Of a DNA stretch of 64,000 bases, positions 2,417 through 45,870 are shown piece after piece (the first letter of the stretch is position 1; the number at the start of each line of letters is the position of its first letter). The translations under genes and the position numbers were made by a program. This stretch comes from Candidatus Nitrosopumilus sp. GTDB taxonomy: Archaea > Thermoproteota > Nitrososphaeria > Nitrososphaerales > Nitrosopumilaceae. The notes beneath the pieces were generated by a model. The model saw nothing but the letters and a program-made list of their open reading frames with translations, searched no databases and had not been told where the DNA came from. Location of the stretch: positions 1-64,000 of the forward strand of contig JAGQHE010000029.1 in NCBI GenBank assembly GCA_020431995.1, written 5' to 3'.

Positions 2417-5053
2417 TTATGAGAATAAAGAAAAAAACTCCATGGCGCCCTTTTTTGTCAGCTCCTTGTTTTTAGTCTGGCAGTAATTTGTGGTAAACGT
2501 GCATTTTGGACACCCTCCCCATACTTCTCCTTGCTCGACTGATTTTCTCTGTTTAGGGTCAGACGGGCATCCGCAGTCAGAAAGCAACGAATTGCATGTG
2601 ACAAGAATCTTTTCGAAGTCATCGAAGATTATCTTGCTGCACCCGTTGAACCCGTCTGAGGAGTTGTCATACAGGTATATCGTCCCGTTTTCATAATACG
2701 AGTCAATGTCATTTGACTCTGATTTTGTGATGATCTTTGCCGCGTTGATCAGCACATGCGCTATCGTATGAGTCCTGGAATCAGACGATAACTGATCAGA
2801 GCCGCCCGCCTTCAAAACAAACTCGGAAGGAATCACGATGCTCACTGCTGAATGCTTTGACTTCCAGTTAAAGTTCCTCCATGACGGAATGTTGGCACCA
2901 TTATGTGTCTCAAAGTTTTCAGATGACTCGTTATAGTTTCCCTTGAGGTATCCTGTAATCGTCCTGCTCAGTTCGATTACCCCGTAACGCAGCAATATTT
3001 TTCTGGACCCTGCGACGATTTCCCGCCGTACAGCATCCCTCTCTGATGCCTGAACTATCGATGTTGCGACTATCGGCATGGTTCTTTTCTGCCTTTCGCC
3101 TGATTTTTTCAGATATGCCCTTGCGCCGTTCTGAGACTTGATTATGGACGTGACCTCGTAATTTTCTTTATTGAAATGATACAGCGCGTTCTGGTGTAGC
3201 TGATAGTATCCTGTTGGGACCGCACGAGTGCCTATCTTCCTTGAGTTATAATATATGGAAATCTCGCCGGATGCTCCGCGCAGGTTTATGCTGTTTGCAA
3301 AATCAAAGAACTGTGACTTGTCGCTTGTCGCAACTGCCTCCTTTTCAACCTCTACTGACTCTGCATGCTTGTCTGATATGATGGGGTTCTTCTTGTTGAT
3401 TGGTATGATGTGATCTTGTGCCAGGTATCTGTCAATGTGCCTTGCAAAATAATGGCATGCCGCATCGTCTGGATCAAAGACACATATCGCATAGGATTTC
3501 TGGCCCATTCTTCCTGCCCTGCCTATTCTCTGCACGAAAGAGTCATACTCGTTTTTGAACGCGGAAATCACGACATCCACGTGCCCGATGTCAATCCCTA
3601 GTTCCAATGTGGGAGTACATGACAGGGCGTCTAACTCGCCTGCCTTCATCTGAGACTCGTGCAGTTTTCTGCTGCTCTGATCCAATCCTCCACGATGTAT
3701 TTGGATCCTTATCCCGTCGTTTGCCTCCTCCACGTTTGATGCAAGGAATTCTGCGTCATTGTGAGAATTGCTGAAGATCAGCTGCGTTGACTTGTTTTTG
3801 AAGCATATTGATGCGATCATCTCCATCGTGGTCCTTTGTCCGTACTTTCTTGGCATTACAAAAAACATGTGCATGTTGTGCTTTCGGCGTGTCTTGCTTT
3901 CGACGTATGAGAATGATTCCTCAGGCAAATCAAACATGCTTGAAAAGAATTCCTTGGAGTTGTCAAGTGTCGCAGATGCCCCCACATACTGGACGTCTCC
4001 CATGTACCTCTTCATTCTGTTTAGCACATGGTAGACATTGGACCCGTGGAAGCTGGTGTATGAATGGGCCTCATCCATCACAATTATTTTTGCATTCTTG
4101 AACAGTTCATTCCATTTTCTGTCTTGTAAAATCAAATGATAGTTGATAAAATCAAAATTTGTCGCAATGATTAATGCCTTCTTGCCTGAGTCTGCAATGA
4201 TCATGTCCTTGTATTCGGAGCTCTGCCCGCCATGAATAGAATACACCGAGACCTTGCCTCGCAACCCGCACCTGTCAACAAGATCAGAAATCTTGGACAC
4301 CTGATCATCGATTAACGCATTAAGCGGGTATACAAACAATGCAAATATCCCTGGAACCGCGTCCTGAGAAATTTTTTGCAGTATTGGAATGCTGAATGCC
4401 TCCGTCTTGCCAGAGCCTGTAGGGGCAGAAATGATGCAGTTGTCTCCACTGATGATGGAACGAATTGACTGCTCCTGAAACGGCAAGAATCCGGAGAAGC
4501 CATATCTCTTGACTCCGTTTAGGATGTTGTCTGACAGGACGTCATTGAGGGCGTCTATGGGTATTTTCTCCGGCTCTGAGGATCTGACGTTCTCATAGTG
4601 CACAATTCCCAGAGTCTCATCCTTGTGGCCTTGAACCAGTTCGCGTATTATCATGTCGTCATCAATCAGCGATTTTGGGATCTTGTCTATGTCAAAGAGG
4701 ATTTCCGCAGGCAGCTCAATCTTGGGCTCTGAAATGGCCGCACTTGGCTTTGAATGCTCTCTTGTCTGATCCGGAAAGTATTCGGTGCGTTCTGCCTGTT
4801 CGCACCTGTGAGGCTCGTCGGTTCTTGCATCAATCGGGATGAACTTCCCGCTATCTGATTTGAACGCATCATCCCAGTAAATCTGAGCCCCGCATCCTTT
4901 AGAGCATGACTTTGTTTTGCCCGAACAGTTCATTCCATAGGTGGGCCTTTTTGGCATTACTTTTTCGGGATGGCACTTTGGGCAAACCCACGGGCCTCCA
5001 ACATCGTCCATGTTCTGAGACAGTTTGGTGTCGCAGTCAAAGCAAAACTTCAT
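2417..5053 (-). CDS. DEAD/DEAH helicase with C-terminal Cys cluster (DUF1998, MrfA-like)
   Basis: The 878-residue SF2 helicase has two N-terminal Cys-rich patches (CFDCD/CPKCH and CSKGCGAQIYWDD), Walker A APTGSGKTE near residue 210, DEAH near 327, SAT motif GASATLDN, a LELGIDIGHVDVVI motif and QRIGRAGRMGQ. The C-terminus has a DUF1998-type cluster CGCPSD...CPKC...C. The architecture resembles bacterial MrfA/YprA, which unwinds DNA in mitomycin-lesion repair; the extra N-terminal zinc fingers are lineage-specific. No MrfB-type nuclease lies next to it. Role in DNA repair is inferred from the family. Confidence 0.85.
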   Translation of the reverse strand: MKFCFDCDTKLSQNMDDVGGPWVCPKCHPEKVMPKRPTYGMNCSGKTKSCSKGCGAQIYWDDAFKSDSGKFIPIDARTDEPHRCEQAERTEYFPDQTREHSKPSAAISEPKIELPAEILFDIDKIPKSLIDDDMIIRELVQGHKDETLGIVHYENVRSSEPEKIPIDALNDVLSDNILNGVKRYGFSGFLPFQEQSIRSIISGDNCIISAPTGSGKTEAFSIPILQKISQDAVPGIFALFVYPLNALIDDQVSKISDLVDRCGLRGKVSVYSIHGGQSSEYKDMIIADSGKKALIIATNFDFINYHLILQDRKWNELFKNAKIIVMDEAHSYTSFHGSNVYHVLNRMKRYMGDVQYVGASATLDNSKEFFSSMFDLPEESFSYVESKTRRKHNMHMFFVMPRKYGQRTTMEMIASICFKNKSTQLIFSNSHNDAEFLASNVEEANDGIRIQIHRGGLDQSSRKLHESQMKAGELDALSCTPTLELGIDIGHVDVVISAFKNEYDSFVQRIGRAGRMGQKSYAICVFDPDDAACHYFARHIDRYLAQDHIIPINKKNPIISDKHAESVEVEKEAVATSDKSQFFDFANSINLRGASGEISIYYNSRKIGTRAVPTGYYQLHQNALYHFNKENYEVTSIIKSQNGARAYLKKSGERQKRTMPIVATSIVQASERDAVRREIVAGSRKILLRYGVIELSRTITGYLKGNYNESSENFETHNGANIPSWRNFNWKSKHSAVSIVIPSEFVLKAGGSDQLSSDSRTHTIAHVLINAAKIITKSESNDIDSYYENGTIYLYDNSSDGFNGCSKIIFDDFEKILVTCNSLLSDCGCPSDPKQRKSVEQGEVWGGCPKCTFTTNYCQTKNKELTKKGAMEFFSLFS

Positions 5054-5341
5054 GACTGTCTTTGTGGCTGATTCACCATTAATGAATTAATCAAACAGAT
5101 GGTTGTCTTGAGATGAATTATTTTAGTAAAATGTGTGTTATCTGATACTGTTATTGTCATACCAAGTCTAATCACGTCCAAAAGAATCTGCAGATAAAAA
5201 AATACCCTGATTTGCTGATCGTACATTTGCTCCTGAATCAATTGACACTGATATGGTTCATCATTCTTTTTTATTACCGTGTCTCATAATTGACAACGTC
5301 AAAACGATTATAGTGCAAAAGATGGATGTTCAAACCTCGTT

Positions 5342-7339
5342 TTAACGAGCCCTCATGGCGTTTAGAATTACTGCCACATCTAGTACCTCTTGCAATAGCG
5401 CTCCGTATTCAGGCTCTATGTATCCAAAACTTGCAAAGCCCATGAGGACAAAGCTTGCACCCAACCCAAAAAAAATCCCCTGCTTGGCTATCTTTACTGT
5501 CCGCTTACTGATTTCAACCGCAGTCATGACTTTTGTGACATCGTCAACCATCAGCACGATGTCGGATGTTTCGGCAGAAATCGCCGTGCCTTTTGATCCC
5601 ATCCCGATCCCGGTTGTCGCAGTTGCCAAAGCCGGCGCATCGTTGATTCCGTCGCCAACCATGATTACGTTGCCAAAGACATCTTTGGTCTTTTTGACTA
5701 TGGATACCTTTTGCTCTGGTAAGAGATTTGCATGAACCGCCGATATTCCGGATTTTCGTGCTATGTTTTCCGCATTGTGCAAATTGTCTCCGGTCAGCAG
5801 AGCAGTCTGTCTTATTCCTAATTTTTTCAGTTTGCCAATCATTGCATCGACGCCAGGCCTTACCATGTCCACAAAAATGAGCACGCCTGAAAGGGCCCCG
5901 TCAACTGTTACAAATGCCAGCATTTTTCCATCCGAATCAATTTCGTTTTTGACGTCTCTGATGCGCTGTTTTAGCTTCATGTCCATATCTGCAAAAAGGA
6001 TTTCAGATCCAATCATGATGTGTTGCCTGTCTACATCTCCTTCCACGCCTGCCCCTGGCGTCTCATGAAAGTTTTCGGGGGTTGGAATGCTGCCAAATCT
6101 GCCTTCGGCCAAAGCCAGAACAGACTGAGCAGCAGGATGCGATGACATTTGCTCTACTGATGCAATTTTACGTAGAAGAGAATTGAAATTTACGTCATCT
6201 ATGGGCCTTAGCTCTTCCAGTCTTGGGGAGCCAAAGGTTATGGTCCCTGTTTTGTCAAAGAGTATTGCCTTTGCCTTTCCAAGCTGTTCTATTGCAGAGC
6301 CTGTTTTGATCACGATGTTGTTTTTGGCAGCCCGGTTGATCCCGCTAATTATTGCAGCAGGAGTGGCAAAAATCAGAGGACAGGGAGTCGCAACTACCAG
6401 TACTGCAAGAATTGTGGTCGTACTCTGCGTGATGGCCCAGCCTGCCAAACTCACTGCAATCACAATGGGTGTAAACCATACTGCATACCTGTCAGCTAAT
6501 CTCTGGAGTGGCGCCTTTTCCTGTTGGGCCTTTCTGACCATCTGAACTATTTTTGCGTACTGGCTCTCGCCGCTGGTTTTTTGCGCCTCCATCTCAAACG
6601 GGTTTCCGACATTCACAGTGCCACTAAAGACAAGATCGCCGTCATTTTTTGTCTTTGTGACTGGCTCTCCGGTCAATGCTGACTCGTCAACTTGGACCTG
6701 GTCGTTTCTTGTTATCCCGTCAACAGGTACGAGGTCGCCGGTCCGAACTAACAGCACATTGCCTGGCTTTACGTCGGTTACGTCTATTTTATCCAACATC
6801 CCATCCCTCTTTCTAATCGCAAACCTGGGAGCTCTTTTTGACAGCTCTTCCAAGGAGTCCTGAGCATGACGAAATGCATAGTCTTCAAGAGCCTTTCCAC
6901 CTGACTGCATTAGCACAATTATGACGCCCGGGAATGGATCATTTGTAATGACTGAAACCAAAATGGCAAGCATTGCAACAATATCTGCAGCAAACTTACG
7001 GCGAAGCATTCCCTTGATGGTGTCCCATACTATCGGCGCCCCTCCGGCAACTAAAATCGCCAACCATATGGAATGACCTGAATCAGGACTCCCAAGCAGC
7101 CAGTGAAAAATGCTCCCTATAAGTAGCCCGCAAAGTGCAAGAGACGGAATGGGGTATTGCCTAACCAGAAACATGGCTTTCTTGATCATTTGATGTGTCT
7201 GATTGCCCAAGCGACTAAATATGTGCATGCGGCTTGCATTCTCTTTGTTTCTTTGTACCATCCATGACATGGATTTACAAATCTTCAAGAAATCCATCAT
7301 GGCGCCCCAGGTGCCTGACAAAATAGACCTTGCTGGCAA
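5342..7339 (-). CDS. P1B-type metal-transporting ATPase with TPC motif
   Basis: Numbered from the upstream ATG (665 residues): TGEP at about 223, membrane motif TPCPL at 318, phosphorylation loop DKTGT at 362, the P1B-specific SHP at 400 and GDGINDAP at 562. It pumps transition-metal ions out of the cytosol. There is no N-terminal heavy-metal-associated CxxC domain, and the ion-binding motif is TPC rather than CPC, so substrate should not be assumed to be Cu+ or Zn2+. The first membrane helix starts after residue 50, so M51 (base 7189) is an alternative start. The stop codon lies in a small palindrome CTCGTTTTAACGAG (5336-5349). Confidence 0.9.
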   Translation of the reverse strand: MPARSILSGTWGAMMDFLKICKSMSWMVQRNKENASRMHIFSRLGNQTHQMIKKAMFLVRQYPIPSLALCGLLIGSIFHWLLGSPDSGHSIWLAILVAGGAPIVWDTIKGMLRRKFAADIVAMLAILVSVITNDPFPGVIIVLMQSGGKALEDYAFRHAQDSLEELSKRAPRFAIRKRDGMLDKIDVTDVKPGNVLLVRTGDLVPVDGITRNDQVQVDESALTGEPVTKTKNDGDLVFSGTVNVGNPFEMEAQKTSGESQYAKIVQMVRKAQQEKAPLQRLADRYAVWFTPIVIAVSLAGWAITQSTTTILAVLVVATPCPLIFATPAAIISGINRAAKNNIVIKTGSAIEQLGKAKAILFDKTGTITFGSPRLEELRPIDDVNFNSLLRKIASVEQMSSHPAAQSVLALAEGRFGSIPTPENFHETPGAGVEGDVDRQHIMIGSEILFADMDMKLKQRIRDVKNEIDSDGKMLAFVTVDGALSGVLIFVDMVRPGVDAMIGKLKKLGIRQTALLTGDNLHNAENIARKSGISAVHANLLPEQKVSIVKKTKDVFGNVIMVGDGINDAPALATATTGIGMGSKGTAISAETSDIVLMVDDVTKVMTAVEISKRTVKIAKQGIFFGLGASFVLMGFASFGYIEPEYGALLQEVLDVAVILNAMRAR

Positions 7340-7409
7340 AAATGTCTCTTAGGCGATTAATGTCTGCCTTTGATGAAAAGAAAACGTAGCGGGATTCCCA
7401 TGATGATTG

Positions 7410-7544
7410 CTACGGACTAGGAAGAATATACTGCACCAAATGAGCAATTCCGCTTTTAGAATGTGAAACAAAATCCAGCATGTCGGAGATGATCAAGAAA
7501 TCATTTTCGTTTTTCCAAATTATTTGAAAATCTGACTGTGACAT
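7410..7544 (-). CDS. possible 44-residue protein
   Basis: The frame begins MSQSDFQIIWKNENDFL and ends LVQYILPSP. The amphipathic composition is protein-like and the frame fills a gap between the ATPase and the accessory region. No family recognised and no clear promoter; could be chance. Confidence 0.35.
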   Translation of the reverse strand: MSQSDFQIIWKNENDFLIISDMLDFVSHSKSGIAHLVQYILPSP

Positions 7545-7670
7545 TTCTTGGATCAAAACTCATGAAAATGATTACAAGAGTTGTTCTAACTGCTTCTGAT
7601 GCGTAAAAGTTGACCCCGATATTGACAAAAGTTTTCAACTGCATGCGAGTTAATCCAAGGACTGCCTGTA

Positions 7671-8036
7671 TCATGACAGCAATACAAATGGCGCGATGTT
7701 TGGAACCCCTTCTGAGTTCACGACAAAAAGCATGTAGTATCCTGGAGGTGTCAGGCTCTTGTTTGCAGGCACTTGCACTGACAAAAGAATGCCTGACTTG
7801 CTCTCAAATTTCAGACCCACGTATCTCTGCTCAGGATTGAGGCAGTGGGTGGTGTTTGAAGGACGGATTATTGCGACAGATTTTATGGTGTCTGCATCTG
7901 CAACTTCGATGTCAAATTGCTTCCCGTATCTAATTTCATCAGGATGGCTTGCAATTCTTGGACGCTCTCCTTTGAAGAAATAATGCGGCCTGTAGATCTC
8001 GATTCTTTTCTCAAAACACTTTCTGGAGGGGTTGCT
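7671..8036 (-). pseudogene. C-terminal domain fragment of a galactose-oxidase/glyoxal-oxidase-like protein (DUF1929)
   Basis: Residues IEIYRPHYFFKGERPRI, then EIRYGKQFDIEV, TTHCLNPEQRYVGL and PPGYYMLFVVNSEGVPNIAPF form a nearly complete DUF1929 early-set Ig domain, the C-terminal domain of Kelch-type galactose oxidase relatives. The His in TTHCLNPEQR corresponds to a conserved family position. The catalytic Kelch propeller is missing: upstream the frame merely shadows the helical gene at 8011-8604, which ends in a different frame exactly where this homology begins. A frameshifted fusion or decayed gene is likely. Confidence 0.6.
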
Positions 8037-8604
8037 TCCCTTCATAAGGATTGTATGCAGAACCTTTTGGATTCTGTGCAGCTTTGAGATATGGTGATAC
8101 CAAATTGTAATTGGGTTGCTCGCTCTTGATTGGGTTTGAAGGACTGCTTCCATTAATTTTATCAAAGACTGAACGCCATGTTGCAGATGCCTTGCTTTCC
8201 TGACTGACTGCCTGTCTAGATGCAACGACACTAGCTGCATGACTCCTGCTTACCCTTTGCTGTTTTAATGTCTGTTCTGATATTGAGTATTTGTCATGGA
8301 TCTTTCTGATCTCTTGGGCTGATGCACCGCTTGACTTTGCCTGTGCGAGTTCTTGTAATCCCTGTTGTGCTCTGTCTTGATTGCCTTGTTGCTCTCTCAA
8401 GGCTTTTCTCTTTACTTCTGGATCTGCAAAGTTCTGTGAATTGATTGCGCCTATCGCCTGAGATGTATTAGATGCTATTTGTGCAAGTCTTTTCTCAGCT
8501 GCCAGTGCAGCTTGATGGGCTGAATACTCAGCTGCCGATGTTGCTACGTATCCTTTTGATCGAAACTTGTTAGGGTCGTTCTGTGGATTACGTGATGCTG
8601 GCAT
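8011..8604 (-). CDS. Q/A/S-rich helical protein, possibly frameshifted
   Basis: The 197-residue product is rich in Ala, Gln, Ser and Lys with long predicted helices (AAEYSAHQAALAAEKRLAQ; REQQGNQDRAQQGLQELAQ), probably coiled coil. No catalytic motif, signal or membrane segment. Its start overlaps the stop of the Cys-rich gene upstream (TGATG), suggesting translational coupling. Its end overlaps the DUF1929 fragment in another frame; a single frame change near 8020-8040 would fuse the two into a protein with helical N-terminus and beta C-terminus. No family recognised. Confidence 0.6.
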   Translation of the reverse strand: MPASRNPQNDPNKFRSKGYVATSAAEYSAHQAALAAEKRLAQIASNTSQAIGAINSQNFADPEVKRKALREQQGNQDRAQQGLQELAQAKSSGASAQEIRKIHDKYSISEQTLKQQRVSRSHAASVVASRQAVSQESKASATWRSVFDKINGSSPSNPIKSEQPNYNLVSPYLKAAQNPKGSAYNPYEGKQPLQKVF

Positions 8605-8735
8605 CAGGCTTCCCCATTCATCTTTGCAATCTTATGGCATTCGCATCCGCAAAAATCATTTTTGTTAGTGCATGCTTTGTGGTAAGTCCGATAACATTTG
8701 ATGGACTTTTTCTTTTCAACAAGGAATATACTCAT
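8604..8735 (-). CDS. 43-residue Cys-rich protein
   Basis: The frame starts MSIFLVEKKKS and contains CYRTYHKAC followed by CGCECHKIA, i.e. five Cys and two His in 30 residues, typical of a metal-binding micro-protein. Its TGA overlaps the ATG of the helical protein gene (TGATG), indicating an operon. The CxCxCHKI ending resembles the product at 12719-12850 (CYCKCHKII), suggesting a small paralogous family within this window. Confidence 0.6.
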   Translation of the reverse strand: MSIFLVEKKKSIKCYRTYHKACTNKNDFCGCECHKIAKMNGEA

Positions 8736-8807
8736 GCGTGATATTGCGCGATCTGATCAATAAGCTTTATTGTTTTTGAGATCTTATCAGGAGTTTACTT
8801 GGAACAA

Positions 8808-8834
8808 TATTAACGAAGTTGAAAGTTTTAGACC
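8808..8834 (+). repeat. left copy of a 27-bp imperfect direct repeat
   Basis: TATTAACGAAGTTGAAAG followed by TTTTAGACC. It matches 10542-10568 at 24 of 27 positions in the same orientation. The two copies bracket an AT-rich three-gene cassette. Confidence 0.7.
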
Positions 8835-8848
8835 CCTGTTGATGATTA

Positions 8849-9397
8849 TTAAGTAACAGAAATCTTCTTTAATTTTAATTTTATAGCATCTGACAATGGC
8901 AATGAATCAATTTTTCCATCTGGAGTAAAAAGTATCAAATATTTTGCTTTATTTAACGTGAATTTTTTATCTGAATGAATTTCTGTGATCTTTAATTTAG
9001 AAGAATAAGGCTCAGTTTCATATTTGTCTTTACTGTCTAATATTTTCCATAATTTCATGAATGCTTTCCAATGTAATCTATGAATGATATCTCCTGGTTT
9101 GGCCGATACTGGGTTGTGCTTTGTACAAAATACAGGTGTATGAAAAGAGGTAAAAAATGATACCACTGGTTTAGTTTCTTCTTTAACAAAATCTGTCCAA
9201 ATTATCAATCCATGATAATGAAATCTAGTAAATCCACATTCATCTTTCACTCCTACAGGTTCGTAATCATCTATTTTTTTAGGCCCATCAAAATCCCAAT
9301 AAAATGAGTGAATTTTTGAGCCAATTGCTAATGAATCCCCCTCATCAAAAACTTGTTGAGGTTTTGAACCTTTACTGATTTTTACTATTTCAGTCAT
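8849..9397 (-). CDS. unknown cassette protein A
   Basis: A 182-residue protein with no family I recognise. It is soluble, with aromatic and His-rich stretches (IHSFYWDFDG; RFHYHGLIIWTDF; HRLHWKAFMKLW) and a Lys-rich C-terminus. It overlaps the preceding minus-strand gene by 8 nt, so the two are an operon. The codon use is AT-rich compared with flanking genes, and the gene lies between direct repeats, which points to acquisition by transfer. Confidence 0.7.
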   Translation of the reverse strand: MTEIVKISKGSKPQQVFDEGDSLAIGSKIHSFYWDFDGPKKIDDYEPVGVKDECGFTRFHYHGLIIWTDFVKEETKPVVSFFTSFHTPVFCTKHNPVSAKPGDIIHRLHWKAFMKLWKILDSKDKYETEPYSSKLKITEIHSDKKFTLNKAKYLILFTPDGKIDSLPLSDAIKLKLKKISVT

Positions 9398-10028
9398 TAA
9401 TTGTAAAAATAGGTTTTCCGTCTATAACGTCAATTTGTTTTAATTCTGAATCTTGTAGTGGATCGATTCCTAATTCTTTGTAGTATTCATCTAATGATTG
9501 AACTTCATCGAGAATTTCTTTACATCTTTTAAATTTCAAAATCGCATCTTTTGGATTTGAACATTCTAGTGAGACGAAAATGTCTCTAAAGTACGTATCT
9601 AAAGTGGTTGCAATATCCATTAAATACGAATCATCTTTATTTTGAAGTTTAAATTTATTTAATGCGTCGATAGTTTCAAGCATTTGTTTATTATCAAATG
9701 TCTGATTCTTTACATCTAGAATATTCTGTGAAATTCTTGAAGATAATTCTGGCCATTTTTTTCTAGTAAGAATTTTGTATATGCTTGATGATTTTGAAAG
9801 ACGTTTTGGGTTAGATTTAGAAGATAGAATCTGTGTCGAAATACTGATGTTTTCTAAAGCATGACTCTTGTTTCCATTAGTTTTTCTGATCATATCCATT
9901 TTTGGGGTGGTAATTCCTTGTATTTCCATAACTTCAGAAATAAGATTTGATGGGTGTTTTGAACTATCTATTTTCGGTCGGAATGAATAATCTGTTACAC
10001 TAGAATTAGTAAATAATGTCATGGCCAT
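9390..10028 (-). CDS. unknown cassette protein B
   Basis: A 212-residue protein, unrecognised. The N-terminal 70 residues are Ser/Lys/Asn-rich and probably disordered; residues about 90-195 look helical (MLETIDALNKFKLQ; LKFKRCKEILDEVQSLDEY). The next gene starts inside its 3' end (8-nt overlap). A box A TTAATATTAA (10051-10060) lies about 27 nt before the ATG, supporting a leaderless start. Possibly a two-component partner of protein A. Confidence 0.7.
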   Translation of the reverse strand: MAMTLFTNSSVTDYSFRPKIDSSKHPSNLISEVMEIQGITTPKMDMIRKTNGNKSHALENISISTQILSSKSNPKRLSKSSSIYKILTRKKWPELSSRISQNILDVKNQTFDNKQMLETIDALNKFKLQNKDDSYLMDIATTLDTYFRDIFVSLECSNPKDAILKFKRCKEILDEVQSLDEYYKELGIDPLQDSELKQIDVIDGKPIFTIND

Positions 10029-10050
10029 ACTAATGAATCAAAGAATCTAC

Positions 10051-10086
10051 TTAATATTAATTCCCAATAAACATCTTTTTTAAATA
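10051..10086. promoter_or_regulatory. divergent promoter region of the cassette
   Basis: TTAATATTAA (10051-10060) is positioned for the minus-strand operon starting at 10028, and TTTAAATA (10079-10086) about 24 nt before the plus-strand ATG at 10106. The two directions share a 77-nt spacer. Confidence 0.5.
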
Positions 10087-10105
10087 GAAATTTTTACTAT
10101 CCTCA

Positions 10106-10480
10106 ATGGCTTCAAAGAAAACGCGCAATTCAGGGCCTAAAATTACCGTAACAAAGAGTGAAGACTATGAAGATATTTTTGTCAGCACTGTGTGGGGGGG
10201 GACAAGGCCTGGTCATATTGAGGCAGTAGTAGTTTCCGAAAGTATCGAAATGGATGAAGCATTAAAAGATTTGGCAATAAATACTGCTAAAGTAAACGCC
10301 CATCGAGAAATTCGCTGTAGGTTGATTTTTGAACCTCATTCATTCAAAGACATAGTTACATGGATGAATGAGAAACTTAAGGAATATGAATATGTTTATG
10401 GCCCAATCAAGACTATGAAAGAAGTTCAAGAAAAATACTCCGATTTTGCCAAGTCAAAATCTACGAATAATTTGGAATAA
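10106..10480 (+). CDS. cassette protein C, DUF3467-like
   Basis: A 124-residue protein with a basic N-terminus and a beta-rich centre (DIFVSTVWGGTRPGHIEAVVV), then CRLIFEPHSFKDIV and WMNEKLKEYEYVYGPI. The last part resembles the end of DUF3467, where a strand is followed by a helix and a YExxxGxI motif; this is a weak match by eye. Divergent from proteins A and B and inside the same repeat-bounded AT-rich cassette. Confidence 0.6.
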   Translation: MASKKTRNSGPKITVTKSEDYEDIFVSTVWGGTRPGHIEAVVVSESIEMDEALKDLAINTAKVNAHREIRCRLIFEPHSFKDIVTWMNEKLKEYEYVYGPIKTMKEVQEKYSDFAKSKSTNNLE

Positions 10481-10541
10481 TTACTAAGATCAATTCCCAC
10501 TTGTGTCAATAACATTTGCTAGATGCATATTTCATGCACAG

Positions 10542-10568
10542 TATTAACGGGGTTGAAAGTTTTAGGCC
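10542..10568 (+). repeat. right copy of the 27-bp imperfect direct repeat
   Basis: TATTAACGGGGTTGAAAG followed by TTTTAGGCC. It differs from 8808-8834 at three positions and sits upstream of the gene at 10629. Confidence 0.7.
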
Positions 10569-10628
10569 ATTTTTTAACTGTTAAAATGGCATTGAATAAT
10601 TATTAAACAAAAAACATCTCGTCTTGTT

Positions 10629-11033
10629 ATGCCATTGGACAAAATGCCTGATCCGGGACAGTTCATTCCGACTCACAAATCAGTTGTGCTGCACAGGAGA
10701 GGGGAGCCTGTCGCATGCATTGTTGATGGCTCGGATCCGTCTTTGTATGCCCCTCTTGAAAACGACCCTTCGCTGCAAGCGGCACTGACAGGTTTTCTAA
10801 ACAAAGACGAAGAGTTTGGGTTGCTGTTTGGATTTCAGCTAAAGATCAAAACGGACTCCGCCTTCTTACAGTTTACCGTGTATCCTGATGAGGAATTCGT
10901 GGACACTGTGATCTTTGATGAGAGGGTATACATCATCAGCAAAAGGATGGAACCAATCTTCACACTAAAGGTCGCGACGGATCAGTTCGTTATGGCAAAA
11001 TCAGAGTTTGACAAATTCAAAAAGATGGCGTGA
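10629..11033 (+). CDS. conserved-looking hypothetical protein
   Basis: A 134-residue acidic soluble protein without recognised family. The first half has PTHKSVVLHRRGEPVACIVD, the second a run of beta strands (FGLLFGFQLKIKT; FLQFTVYPDEEF; RVYIISKRMEPIFTLKV). A box A (ATTATTAAAC) lies about 27 nt before the ATG. Base composition returns here to that of the main chromosome. Confidence 0.65.
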   Translation: MPLDKMPDPGQFIPTHKSVVLHRRGEPVACIVDGSDPSLYAPLENDPSLQAALTGFLNKDEEFGLLFGFQLKIKTDSAFLQFTVYPDEEFVDTVIFDERVYIISKRMEPIFTLKVATDQFVMAKSEFDKFKKMA

Positions 11034-11074: not shown

Positions 11075-11740
11075 ATGGCAAGCTTTGCCCAGATGCTAAA
11101 GGCGAGAGAGCCCGTCTTGCTTGACAGGGAGGACGGCCATTGGTATCAAACAAAGTTTGACAAAATTTATCCGTCCATCAGCACTGTCTTGTCAGCTACT
11201 GCGTCTGAGGAAAAGAAAAACGGCATCTCGCAATGGCAGGAAAACGAGCCTGCGCATGAGTACATCACTGCCCAGGCCCAGCATGTCGGAACCCAGTCCC
11301 ACAAAATAATCGAGGACTATCTGAACAATGCCCTGTCCTATGAGGGATACGACTTGCTTCCAATTGCCCATTTTAACAACCTCAGGCCGTTTCTTGAGAA
11401 CATCTCTGATGTCGTATGCATTGAGCAGCGAATGTATTCTGACAGGCTCAGGGTCGCAGGAACAAGTGACCTTATTGCAAAATACAATGGGGATCTGTCC
11501 ATAATCGATTACAAGACAAAAAGAAAGCCCCAGGTCGATGATTACATGTACGAGTACTATTTGCAAACTACGTGCTATGCCCAAATGTTTCACGAGGCAA
11601 CGGGCCAAAAAATCAACCAGGTCGTGATTCTGGTAAGCAGTGAGAAAAACACCCGGCAGGAATTCATAAAATCATGCGATGACTATGTTGAGCCAATCAG
11701 TAGGAGAGTCGAGCAATTCTATCTGAGCAGCCTGCTTTGA
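11075..11740 (+). CDS. PD-(D/E)XK exonuclease-like protein (MGME1/Cas4-like fold)
   Basis: The 221-residue protein has the core signature: HKIIEDYL (conserved Glu), GTSDLIAKY (catalytic Asp), IIDYKTKRK (D-Y-K) and YYLQTTCYAQM (QxxxY motif), the order found in PD-(D/E)XK nucleases of the MGME1 type. No Cas4-type C-terminal Cys cluster, so not Cas4 or AddB. Probable role is processing of single-strand ends in DNA repair or replication. Follows the previous gene by 41 nt on the same strand. Confidence 0.8.
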   Translation: MASFAQMLKAREPVLLDREDGHWYQTKFDKIYPSISTVLSATASEEKKNGISQWQENEPAHEYITAQAQHVGTQSHKIIEDYLNNALSYEGYDLLPIAHFNNLRPFLENISDVVCIEQRMYSDRLRVAGTSDLIAKYNGDLSIIDYKTKRKPQVDDYMYEYYLQTTCYAQMFHEATGQKINQVVILVSSEKNTRQEFIKSCDDYVEPISRRVEQFYLSSLL

Positions 11741-35190: not shown

Positions 35191-35652
35191 AAAACACTGC
35201 ATCGAAGCTGAACTGGCAGGATTAAAACTGTTTTAGTAATTATTTTGGTACAATTTAGGCTTGTACACCAAGATACTTTACTGAATTACCCCCTGATTTG
35301 TTGGATTGAGAAAATTCATCCATGGTTGATCAGATTTATGGCATGTTGTGTCCATTTGGTTTTTCTTTTGTTACGCAACAAAATTCTACAGCATGGGCAC
35401 TTGACTCCATCACAATCCAAGTAAATATTACAACAAGTACATCACTTTGTACTAACTCCATATCGCTGTGTCCCAGAACGAAATCTTTCACATTTCCTCT
35501 ACAAGCCAAGCTAATTCAAAAACCCTCTACATAACGAACATTTGTCATGGATCTTTGCTAAGGGATAAGCAGTGTATGTCATTCCACATTGACAAATTTT
35601 CAGGTATGTTATTTTACTCATTTTTGATATTGGGGTTTTTCTTGAAGTGAAT
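35191..35652. other. AT-rich gap at the left edge of an accessory island
   Basis: No convincing gene. Two plus-strand frames are open but lack protein-like composition or any recognisable motif; the last one contains a hydrophobic 24-residue end (GMLFYSFLILGFFLK). Base composition becomes markedly more AT-rich here than in the preceding core genes. Confidence 0.4.
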
Positions 35653-35961
35653 TCAAGGAGCAAACTTTGAGATAGTTATATGAATATCATCGATCTTACT
35701 TTGATAAAATCGGATTATTTTTCCATCATGATTAAAGTCTCTCTGTGCCTCAAAAATCAATGAGGCTTCAAGTAATGTCTGAATCTTTTTGTATGTAGTA
35801 CTAACAGGTATCTTTTGCTCTTGTGAAATCTGCTTTGCAGTTTTTGGTATTTTTATAATTGAGAACAGAATGTGTCTTGATTCCAAATCTGTAAGGTGAT
35901 TTAGAACTTTATTTGCTATGTCATATTTTTCAATTAGGATAGGAGTGAGTTTGACTACCAC
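35653..35961 (-). CDS. ArsR/MarR-like winged-helix regulator
   Basis: 102 residues: SRHILFSIIKIPKTAKQISQ, recognition region EQKIPVSTTYKKIQTLLEAS and wing FEAQRDFNHDGKIIRFY. Small transcriptional regulator without obvious effector domain. First gene of the AT-rich island; may control its neighbours. Confidence 0.75.
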   Translation of the reverse strand: MVVKLTPILIEKYDIANKVLNHLTDLESRHILFSIIKIPKTAKQISQEQKIPVSTTYKKIQTLLEASLIFEAQRDFNHDGKIIRFYQSKIDDIHITISKFAP

Positions 35962-36044
35962 ACTGGTTTTTAGACATTACTGAAATTTAAAAAAAACAAT
36001 TATTTCAAAAAGATGTTCTAAAAAATTGGAAAAATTCGGTTTTG

Positions 36045-36347
36045 TCATTTGGATAATACAGACAATATAGGCATTGCATCCCACTGATGCAAGTAGAAAT
36101 TTAAGATTCCAGAGCAGATATTCTCATATTTTTTGAAAAAATCTTTCGCTTCTTGCTCTGTTGCTTCAAACACTGCCATTGAAGACTGTTCATTGTCAAA
36201 TGCACCAGACCACATAATTCTTCCAGACGATTGCCATTCATCTACAAGTTCTGTTATCTTTGGAACAATCATCTGCAAATCAATAGGTTTTGTATCTTCT
36301 CCAATGCTGCTCACAAGTACCCATGGTTTTGTTTCTTGTTGTGACAT
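36045..36347 (-). CDS. YCII/ABM-like dimeric alpha-beta protein
   Basis: 100 residues: KPWVLVSSIGEDTK, a helix LQMIVPKITELVDEWQSSG, SGAFDNEQSSMAVFEATEQ and EAKDFFKKYENICSGILNFY. This is a ferredoxin-like alpha+beta barrel of the YCII/muconolactone-isomerase sort. Enzymatic activity unknown. Confidence 0.65.
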   Translation of the reverse strand: MSQQETKPWVLVSSIGEDTKPIDLQMIVPKITELVDEWQSSGRIMWSGAFDNEQSSMAVFEATEQEAKDFFKKYENICSGILNFYLHQWDAMPILSVLSK

Positions 36348-36754
36348 GTTTTGTAATGTGTAAATTCAAAATTAAACATGATGATGAGTTTATTGACTTG
36401 TTACAGCTTTGTATAACAAAAAGACAGATCACGTCTTTCTCATCATCATAGAATATCTTTGTAAAATTGTAGACATCTATAATTAATTAAGAAAGATATG
36501 CTTATTGGTCTTGCAAACTGGTCTGACATATCCTATACAAGCCTGCATGACAGGGTTGTTGGAATTGGCAACATGCTAGTTATTCATCCTAACAGGCCAT
36601 GGGGTGTTACTATTGGCATGTTTTACTCAAAGCCAATCCGATAACTCTTTTTATCATAACTGATTATCATTTTTTCCAATTTTCATCGCGAAAATAATCT
36701 AAAATCCAATAAAATACATCAAAAACTCATTTTAGATATTAAGAGAAAGAAAGA
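36348..36754. other. AT-rich gap with one weak frame
   Basis: Contains a 48-residue plus-strand frame (36498-36644, MLIGLANWSDISYTSL to FYSKPIR) that is protein-like but has its AT-rich box too close to the start for a leaderless promoter. Otherwise nothing recognised. Confidence 0.35.
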
Positions 36755-43111: not shown

Positions 43112-43432
43112 ATGAATGCAAACTTTAATGCCAGATACGATTACAAGAATAACAAACAGTATTCATATAAAATTATCTTGCAAGATACTTTGCAACAGTT
43201 TGCGAATTTTATTGTAGATAAAAAGAAAGAACTGGAGTTTGCCATCCCAAAGATCCATCCCAGTAACAAAAACACCACATTACTGAGTAACAAAATTCTT
43301 GGCATCACTCCACACCAGAGAAAACAGATGGGAATAAGCAAGTCAACCCTGCATTATCTGAAAAATAACATCATTCAGGGAAAACAGACAAGGGCCTATT
43401 CCAAGACACTGGATAAGATACAACGGCTGTAA
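43112..43432 (+). pseudogene. C-terminal fragment of a Cas1/casposase-family integrase
   Basis: 106 residues. DTLQQFANFIVDKKKELEF, then HQRKQMGISKSTLHYLKNNI and a short tail. This pattern (helical VxxLADFITGKKKxLDF, an IxxMxYxxRKKMGISKGTLHYMKKN end) is that of the C-terminal lobe of archaeal Cas1 and of casposase Cas1. The N-terminal beta domain and catalytic residues are missing, and no cas2, cas4 or repeats are nearby. I read it as a relic of a casposon or CRISPR locus. Confidence 0.55.
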
Positions 43433-43752: not shown

Positions 43753-45870
43753 TTATTTTACAATGATTTTCCCAACTTTCCAGGGATGAACCATGCAAAA
43801 ATAATGAATCACTCCTGCTTTGTCAGGAACATATTCGAATGAATTTCCTGGCATAAGCAAACCTGTATCAAATTCGCCACTCGGACCGCCTTCTGCTGTT
43901 TCTGCTGTAAATGTGTGTGCCACAGTATCAGTGTTCAAAAATACTATCTTTTGTCCTTTTTTTATGATTAATGTCTGTGGATCTAGATATTTTCCATCGT
44001 CTCTAGGAGCTCCAGAACCATTGAGAGGTCTTACGATATTAGATGATTGAATTGTTTTTCCTCCCAACTGACTCCCAATTATTTCTATTTCTGTCGTATT
44101 CTCTGGAAATTCAATAGATAATGTTCTATGATCGTCAAATCGTCTTTCATCAATTAACGTTTCATCACCATCGGCCAATACAATAAACTCCTCATCCTGA
44201 GAGTTTCTCTTTGAATCAATCAATGATCTAGGTAATGTCACAAATAACTCTCCTCTTGAAATTGCAGATATTTTGAAGATTAGGGAATTAGAATCGTGAT
44301 CTGGCAGAATATTTTTCAGATCGCCTCCATTAATTAGATAAGATAAATCGTAACTTTCATCATCTAGTTGTATTATATTGGATAATAATTTTGAAACATT
44401 TTTCTTTATGAAGGTGATTTTTACGCTTTGTTGATTTTTAGCATTTCCACAAGTTGCTAAGATCGTATAATTCTCAGAATGATTCCAAAGAGGGCCTTCT
44501 GGTGTGTGTTCTGCTTTAAAATCCCACGAAGTGTCAACATCTACTTGGAAAATAGCAACAGCTTGGTTTTTTGAATTGACTATTCTTAATGATACTGGCA
44601 CATTTGGAAGTCTTGGATTAACATTTCCGGTAATGATTATGGGTGTATTTTCATCATAAGTTGTTTTGTTTGTAAAAAGCTTTATTGTAGTTAGTTCATC
44701 AAGATGTTTGATTTGAGAAATTTGTTTGTATGCATCTTTGATCATAGTTGTAACATAATCCACCTCATTGGACGTAGGATTGTATTTAGTATGCACAATT
44801 TTATTTCGAATGCCACGAATTCTTGTTAATTCTCCTACATTATTAGGATCTAAGATTCCATTTTGAGCAGCCGTTTTGACTAGATATGAAAATGAGCGGT
44901 TTAATCTGTTCTCTTCTATTCCATAATTTCTCAATGCATCTCGTAATGTATCTTCAAATTCTGAAAATGCGTTAACTATTTTACCTGTTTGAATGTCATA
45001 GTTTTCCCCTGAGCCAAGGAATTCAGTATCTTTTTGGATATGCTCTTTTGTAGGTAATTCCGCATAATCTGTGTCTCTAATTGAAACATAATCTTGAATC
45101 TGACAAAGAAATTCTAATAATACTTTCTCTCTTGTCGTATCTTTCGTTTTTAGATTAATAACAATAAGATCGTCGTTTTCATATTCGTTTATTTTCTTTT
45201 CATCAGCATCAAATAATACTATATATCCTTTATTCATAAAATCCCTAAGCTGTTTTTTAAGAATATGACGCAGTTGTTGAAAATGAGAGTCACTCAAACT
45301 ATATCCAATAAACAAAGGTGTTTTTGTTGAAAGCCATGCTGCAAGATTTGTAGCTAATACAGGATGCCTATCTAGGAAATTTTCATAATCTTCTTGTGTT
45401 ATAACAATGTCTCTATGATGTGTGAAATCACCATGAATTTTTATGATGTTTGTATGAGTAGACGGCGAATATTTTCCAATATGTTCATCACCTGCGATCA
45501 CATGGATTGGTTTTTTATTGAAAAAAGCATCCTCTAACAATGATTCAAAGTTTGTAGTTACAATTGTATCAAATGCAACTATTGTAGTTAATTTACAATG
45601 AACTTTTCCTGGTTTTGCGGCATATACATGTAGAAGTTCAGATAATTTTCGTATGAGTTCATTCGTACCAAATTCTTTTGCATAATTTGATGCAGCAATT
45701 AATGGTTCATTCGATTTTTCTCTCAGATCTTTTGACAATCCTATTGCCAATTCATTCCAACTAGGCATTGTTAACCCATTTGGCATTTCAGCATTTTTGG
45801 AAAATCCTGCACCTATGAATAACAAACAACGTTTTGCTTGAATTGCTTTAAGAAGAGGGTCTGGTATCAT
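43753..45870 (-). CDS. SIR2-HEPN-like-Ig-cupredoxin fusion protein
   Basis: 705 residues in one uninterrupted frame. Residues 1-260: SIR2-like domain with GAGFSKNA (20-27), TTNFESLLEDA (105-115), KIHGD (144-148) and FIGYSLSD (188-195), all NADase motifs present. Residues 295-390: helical segment with RNKIVH (355-360), an Rx4H HEPN-type motif. Residues about 393-490: Ig-like domain and 501-600: beta domain with FVTLPRSLID, both typical of exported thaumarchaeal proteins. Residues 626-705: cupredoxin with His652, Cys692, His695 (FCMVHPWK); the axial Met position is Lys. No signal peptide or membrane helix. The gene is AT-rich and stands alone beside a Cas1-like relic; likely an undescribed defence or stress effector. 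Confidence 0.85.
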   Translation of the reverse strand: MIPDPLLKAIQAKRCLLFIGAGFSKNAEMPNGLTMPSWNELAIGLSKDLREKSNEPLIAASNYAKEFGTNELIRKLSELLHVYAAKPGKVHCKLTTIVAFDTIVTTNFESLLEDAFFNKKPIHVIAGDEHIGKYSPSTHTNIIKIHGDFTHHRDIVITQEDYENFLDRHPVLATNLAAWLSTKTPLFIGYSLSDSHFQQLRHILKKQLRDFMNKGYIVLFDADEKKINEYENDDLIVINLKTKDTTREKVLLEFLCQIQDYVSIRDTDYAELPTKEHIQKDTEFLGSGENYDIQTGKIVNAFSEFEDTLRDALRNYGIEENRLNRSFSYLVKTAAQNGILDPNNVGELTRIRGIRNKIVHTKYNPTSNEVDYVTTMIKDAYKQISQIKHLDELTTIKLFTNKTTYDENTPIIITGNVNPRLPNVPVSLRIVNSKNQAVAIFQVDVDTSWDFKAEHTPEGPLWNHSENYTILATCGNAKNQQSVKITFIKKNVSKLLSNIIQLDDESYDLSYLINGGDLKNILPDHDSNSLIFKISAISRGELFVTLPRSLIDSKRNSQDEEFIVLADGDETLIDERRFDDHRTLSIEFPENTTEIEIIGSQLGGKTIQSSNIVRPLNGSGAPRDDGKYLDPQTLIIKKGQKIVFLNTDTVAHTFTAETAEGGPSGEFDTGLLMPGNSFEYVPDKAGVIHYFCMVHPWKVGKIIVK

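Follow-up and report, generated by a model that had tools for sequence, protein, structure and literature searches.

A foreign-looking three-gene block between two direct repeats beside a conserved gene in a Candidatus Nitrosopumilus genome

The window, that is the whole stretch of DNA analysed here, comprises 64,000 nucleotides of a Candidatus Nitrosopumilus contig (JAGQHE010000029.1, positions 1 to 64,000). Between the gene for a DEAD/DEAH-type helicase and a conserved gene termed D it contains a small, foreign-looking block of three genes between two direct repeats (Table 1), and this block is real. A first-pass annotation made from the letters and their open reading frames had described a two-gene operon with an 8-nt overlap and a divergent gene, bracketed by a 27-bp repeat with 24 matches in the same orientation (8808-8834 and 10542-10568). 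The gene arrangement was confirmed from the frames, and the repeat was found as described and extends to 31 nt. The genes of the operon are termed A and B, the divergent gene C.

Table 1. Features of the locus and of its flanks (window coordinates)
Feature	Position	Strand	Remarks
DEAD/DEAH-type helicase gene	2417..5053	-	conserved; bounds the hot spot on the left
Galactose-oxidase-like protein, C-terminal remnant	7671..8240	-	intact 528-aa relative in G015
Left neighbour gene	8011..8604	-	similar to a 1050-aa protein of the G007 integrated element, within the N-terminal part of that protein only
Left direct-repeat copy	8804..8834	+	31 nt
Gene B	8849..9397	-	182 aa
Gene A	9390..10028	-	212 aa; 8-nt overlap with B
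A/C intergenic region	10029..10105	.	77 bp; presumed two-way promoter
Gene C	10106..10480	+	124 aa; divergent from A-B
Right direct-repeat copy	10538..10568	+	31 nt; 27/31 identical to the left copy, same orientation
Conserved A/T-rich motif AATAATTATTAA	10590..10602	+	upstream of D; right repeat outside the motif
Gene D	10629..11033	+	conserved flank
PD-(D/E)XK exonuclease gene	11075-11740		conserved flank, beyond D

The 1.7 kb enclosed by the repeats have a G+C content of 31.0%, compared to 43.0% and 45.8% on the two sides, in agreement with the earlier description of the cassette as AT-rich and unlike its surroundings; the whole window has 44%. The regions sampled from seven congener genomes have about 32-37% G+C. 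Consequently, the cassette looks foreign to its own genome and not to the genus, and its simplest source would be transfer from a low-G+C congener. Neither an integrase, another recombinase nor a transposase is encoded by A, B or C, and no tRNA is situated at the cassette; the tyrosine-recombinase/integrase genes of the genome are found on other contigs only. A search of Rfam gave matches at chance level only.

At all four mismatches between the repeat copies the left copy has an A and the right copy a G, a pattern which the decay of an exact duplication would give. Repeat pairs with at least 27/31 identity within 3 kb were counted in the window and in 30 locally dinucleotide-shuffled windows. 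Exactly one such pair was present in the real window and none in the shuffled ones. The repeat core, allowing up to three mismatches, matched twice in the window, compared to an expectation of 0.01. Short repeats in two copies are frequent where DNA is AT-rich, and many weaker ones occur in the window, so the pair might be thought a chance likeness of two AT-rich stretches; in view of these counts that explanation is effectively refuted and we give it next to no credence.

In the whole 1.73-Mb genome the repeat occurs in two places only. Among 94 other congeners one poor match with three mismatches was obtained, not above the reversed control, and the core had no match in IMG/VR. The position of the copies, both just outside coding regions, with the right one preceding D by 60 bp, would suit a regulatory sequence (promoter or terminator) common to the neighbouring genes, and the first-pass annotation had itself considered promoter sequence shared by many genes. 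We regard this as very improbable, given a copy number of two and the orientation of the copies: both are on the forward strand, but the left one lies upstream of the leftward gene 8011-8604 and the right one upstream of the rightward gene D, so that they stand in opposite senses relative to these genes. Furthermore, the conserved motif upstream of D starts near 10590, outside the repeat.

Terminal inverted repeats are absent from the ends of the cassette. An insertion sequence or MITE was rejected for this reason and because the end repeat is found in only two places of the genome; a casposon was rejected as neither Cas1 nor terminal inverted repeats are present. A hairpin beside the right copy (GCCATTTT..AAAATGGC) was not above shuffles (z -1.24), and there is none beside the left copy.

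Gene D and the PD-(D/E)XK exonuclease gene are kept in about 30 congeners. The similarity to the congeners upstream of D begins at about 10592, at AATAATTATTAA, which is perhaps a TATA element. On the other side of the cassette the two gene fragments are followed, further left, by a heavy-metal P-type ATPase gene and then by the helicase gene. The gap between helicase and D is 5.6 kb here (5054-10628), about 240 bp in G007, G027, G004 and G036, where the two neighbours are divergent, about 0.9 kb in G009 and G035, and 2.2 kb in G031. As it varies among the congeners, the helicase-D gap is an insertion hot spot and the cassette only its right end. The lineage-specific insertion is therefore larger (5.6 kb) than the bracketed 1.7 kb and includes two broken genes. 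According to the first-pass annotation, the same three genes in the same place in relatives would argue against an insertion; no relative searched has them there.

In the short helicase-D junctions of the congeners neither repeat copy is recognisable; the genus thus does not conserve the repeat as a target sequence. Since the region upstream of D is without it in the congeners, the repeat would have arrived with lineage-specific DNA. This brings up an alternative history, namely that A, B and C are the right-hand remnant of a larger decayed integrated element (roughly 5054-10590) which included the left neighbours, the 31-nt repeats being either internal to this element or the scar of a deletion inside it. 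In line with such a history, the entire 5.6 kb are missing at the congener junction, the left neighbours are broken, one of them matching part of an integrated-element protein, and the conserved region upstream of D lacks the repeat. The G+C content, however, steps close to the repeats: the left neighbours have about 43-44%, which is host-like, and the bracketed DNA has 31%. This difference favours separate arrivals of the cassette and the left fragments, and we retain the larger decayed element as a tentative second choice.

The integrated element of G007 (L071, 3822-12240) carries a tyrosine recombinase, a D5-type primase and the 1050-aa protein, in which a near-threshold collagen-like repeat was found. 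As read by eye, the element adjoins a putative dihydroxy-acid dehydratase gene, and this gene is among the known thaumarchaeal integration targets (PMC6563490). At the DNA level the left flank of the cassette and the G007 element have no significant similarity around the repeat. In G053 (L035, 5672-9629) helicase and D are situated in tandem on one strand and not divergently; one of the two is therefore inverted relative to other congeners.

As to whether A and B occur together elsewhere, a point raised in the first-pass annotation, both genes were found adjacent and overlapping in two other Nitrosopumilus-group genomes, G009 and G055, at loci unrelated to the present one. In single-sequence searches of 200 relatives the only other genome with a match to A was G009, and the only ones with a match to B were G009 and G055; among 400 genomes drawn from the class, B was found in its own genome and in G055 only. 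The overlap of 8 nt compares with 14 nt in G009 and 4 nt in G055 (frames as listed), where A was identified from its position and length, the sequence similarity being slight (18%). In G009 the frame of B is broken, and the pair lies about 150 kb from the D locus of that genome, which is without A-B. Just upstream of the G009 pair (L030, 7100-7520) the sequence resembles by eye the C-terminus of an insertion-sequence transposase. In G055 the pair lies in a stretch of about 50-52% G+C within a contig of about 60%. A two-row alignment of B searched against the genome contigs returned the known G009 locus only; B had no matches in IMG/VR, phages or plasmids, and A had none in IMG/VR. Neither protein has a credible match in Pfam, PHROGs or NCBIfam. 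The earlier statement that the genes belong to no recognisable family thus stands for A and B, which form a rare family of two genes that no database model covers, and is not fully accurate for C (see below).

Taken together, the composition, the patchy occurrence of A-B at unrelated loci and the congener junctions that are empty at the gene level argue for inserted accessory DNA, and the insertion of foreign accessory DNA is well supported. As to its history, we favour, with moderate confidence, a horizontally acquired accessory islet with a 31-bp duplication left by recombination, the copies of which have since diverged. Accordingly worded, the operon A-B and the divergent C, with the low G+C content typical of the genus, would have been acquired horizontally by a Nitrosopumilus-group genome of 44% G+C and would have settled at the right end of the 5.6-kb hot spot. 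Recombination on entry would have produced the direct duplication. A tyrosine recombinase supplied in trans by a different element would account for it, as would a repeat-mediated exchange between mobile elements; four A/G transitions would later have separated the copies. Target-site duplications are usually shorter than 31 bp, which counts against this explanation.

Thaumarchaeal integrated elements are flanked by direct repeats, most of them shorter than 26 bp (median 17 bp), and 15 of 68 elements are situated in intergenic regions (PMC6563490). Like these integrated and cryptic integrated elements, the cassette has flanking direct repeats, an intergenic position and patchy ORFan content, and it comes from the same archaeal group. 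Unlike them it measures 1.7 kb only and is without an integrase or a replication gene, and its repeat is longer than most of theirs. Because the direct repeats left by thaumarchaeal elements are typically short and some of the elements, a minority, are intergenic, the anatomy fits an integrated element. An attachment-site duplication is plausible. Of the earlier proposal of an inserted element or attachment-site duplication, the accessory insertion is thus supported; a base-level empty site with one repeat copy in the relatives searched, an integrase in the cassette and a repeat at the congener helicase-D junctions were not found.

The proteins were compared with known families. B has the conserved motifs D-[YW]-E-P, R-[FY]-H-Y and K-P-[VI]..F....H-T-P. 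A profile of B found a relative in G080 (7.5e-6), which is membrane-anchored by eye, as well as a Vps62 domain in a protein of G072 (E 0.0016). In profile comparisons B and the G080 relative matched with 95.7% probability. Against five archaeal Vps62 domains B reached 23% (hhalign), and 47% when the G080 relative was included, compared to at most 0.12% for the unrelated controls A, C and the exonuclease; the G080 relative by itself, however, failed to match (0.2%). In the alignment of B the D-x-E and KPVVSF...HTP of B stand against the D-x-E and HPVVYV...SHA of Vps62, so that B shares the ordered pattern D-x-E ... [HK]-P-V ... H with Vps62 (PF06101). No Pfam match of B lies above the Vps62 cut-off, and with about 180 aa B differs from the archaeal Vps62 proteins in being without their membrane parts. 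The resemblance is weak and ordered, and we take it as a lead and not as membership of the family. The D-x-E region may also resemble necrosis-inducing (NLP) proteins. The structure prediction of B (pLDDT 34) was too poor for a structural search. The prediction for A begins with a disordered N-terminus, followed by a four-helix bundle of high confidence and a short C-terminal hairpin, and the structure search returned generic four-helix bundles only, none with E <= 0.001.

C has a sub-threshold match to DUF3467 (1.1e-4; 22.6 bits compared to a gathering cut-off of 25) and a match to phrog_7919 (3.2e-5). With DUF3467 (PF11950) C and its homologues share the C-terminal pattern R-x(3)-C-x-L ... 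P ... K ... YE ... G-x-I; the match of C covers no more of the model than its C-terminal part. Homologues were found in G055, G080 and G054, and C had no matches in IMG/VR. In G055 the C homologue and A-B are on different contigs; in G054 the homologue is near a transposase-like gene (by eye). Since G009 has A-B but gave no match to C, the three genes are no fixed unit, and C seems to travel independently of A-B.

The first-pass annotation had regarded the cassette as a possible defence unit. This was not borne out by PADLOC, which gave no credible match for A, B or C. A DrmE match for B (0.0046) and a Cas1e match for the A protein of G009 (0.0074) were rejected, since each stands alone, is partial and does not recur among homologues. 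We nevertheless considered that A-B could act in conflict, as a toxin-antitoxin or abortive-infection system, and that its spread would explain the patchiness; this would be compatible with either history of the cassette. A-B has one trait of toxin-antitoxin systems, the small overlapping two-gene operon, and it is found in unrelated places of three genomes. In an AT-rich stretch of G055 (L044, 8100-9179) the C homologue is divergent from two small adjacent genes, a pair which looks toxin-antitoxin-like by eye. On the other hand, neither A and B nor their homologues have a credible match in PADLOC, Pfam or NCBIfam, the G055 pair itself is without a Pfam or PADLOC match, and the closest wider relative of B appears membrane-anchored. 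A conflict system is therefore doubtful. One may speculate that A, a helical bundle, and B, with a Vps62-like domain of metal- or lipid-binding type, are a translationally coupled cytosolic pair; the data point weakly, and likewise speculatively, to an accessory stress or conflict role of A-B, with C separate. It would be more far-reaching to propose a minimal non-autonomous integrative cassette of the Nitrosopumilus group, moved in trans by the tyrosine recombinase of a different element via the 31-bp sites and carrying an undescribed A-B conflict module, and we think this improbable.

Islets of such size are one of the routes along which accessory genes spread among marine archaea of the Nitrosopumilus group. 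If the repeats functioned as recombination sites, the cassette would represent a mobile unit of very small size that has no integrase, in contrast to the larger, multigene elements known from the phylum. On present evidence the cassette is an islet of a variable region, documented but of an ordinary and familiar kind.

Two further AT-rich stretches were observed in the window. At 35501-36750 the G+C content is 31-32%, and long open frames are mostly absent. A second AT-rich island at 43-46 kb, of about 32% G+C and with no bracketing repeat, contains the gene of a 705-aa SIR2_2 protein (43753-45870 on the reverse strand, with 43112-43432 on the forward strand). From its matches to Pfam (1.3e-26) and to ThsA in PADLOC (1.7e-27), this is likely a defence gene.
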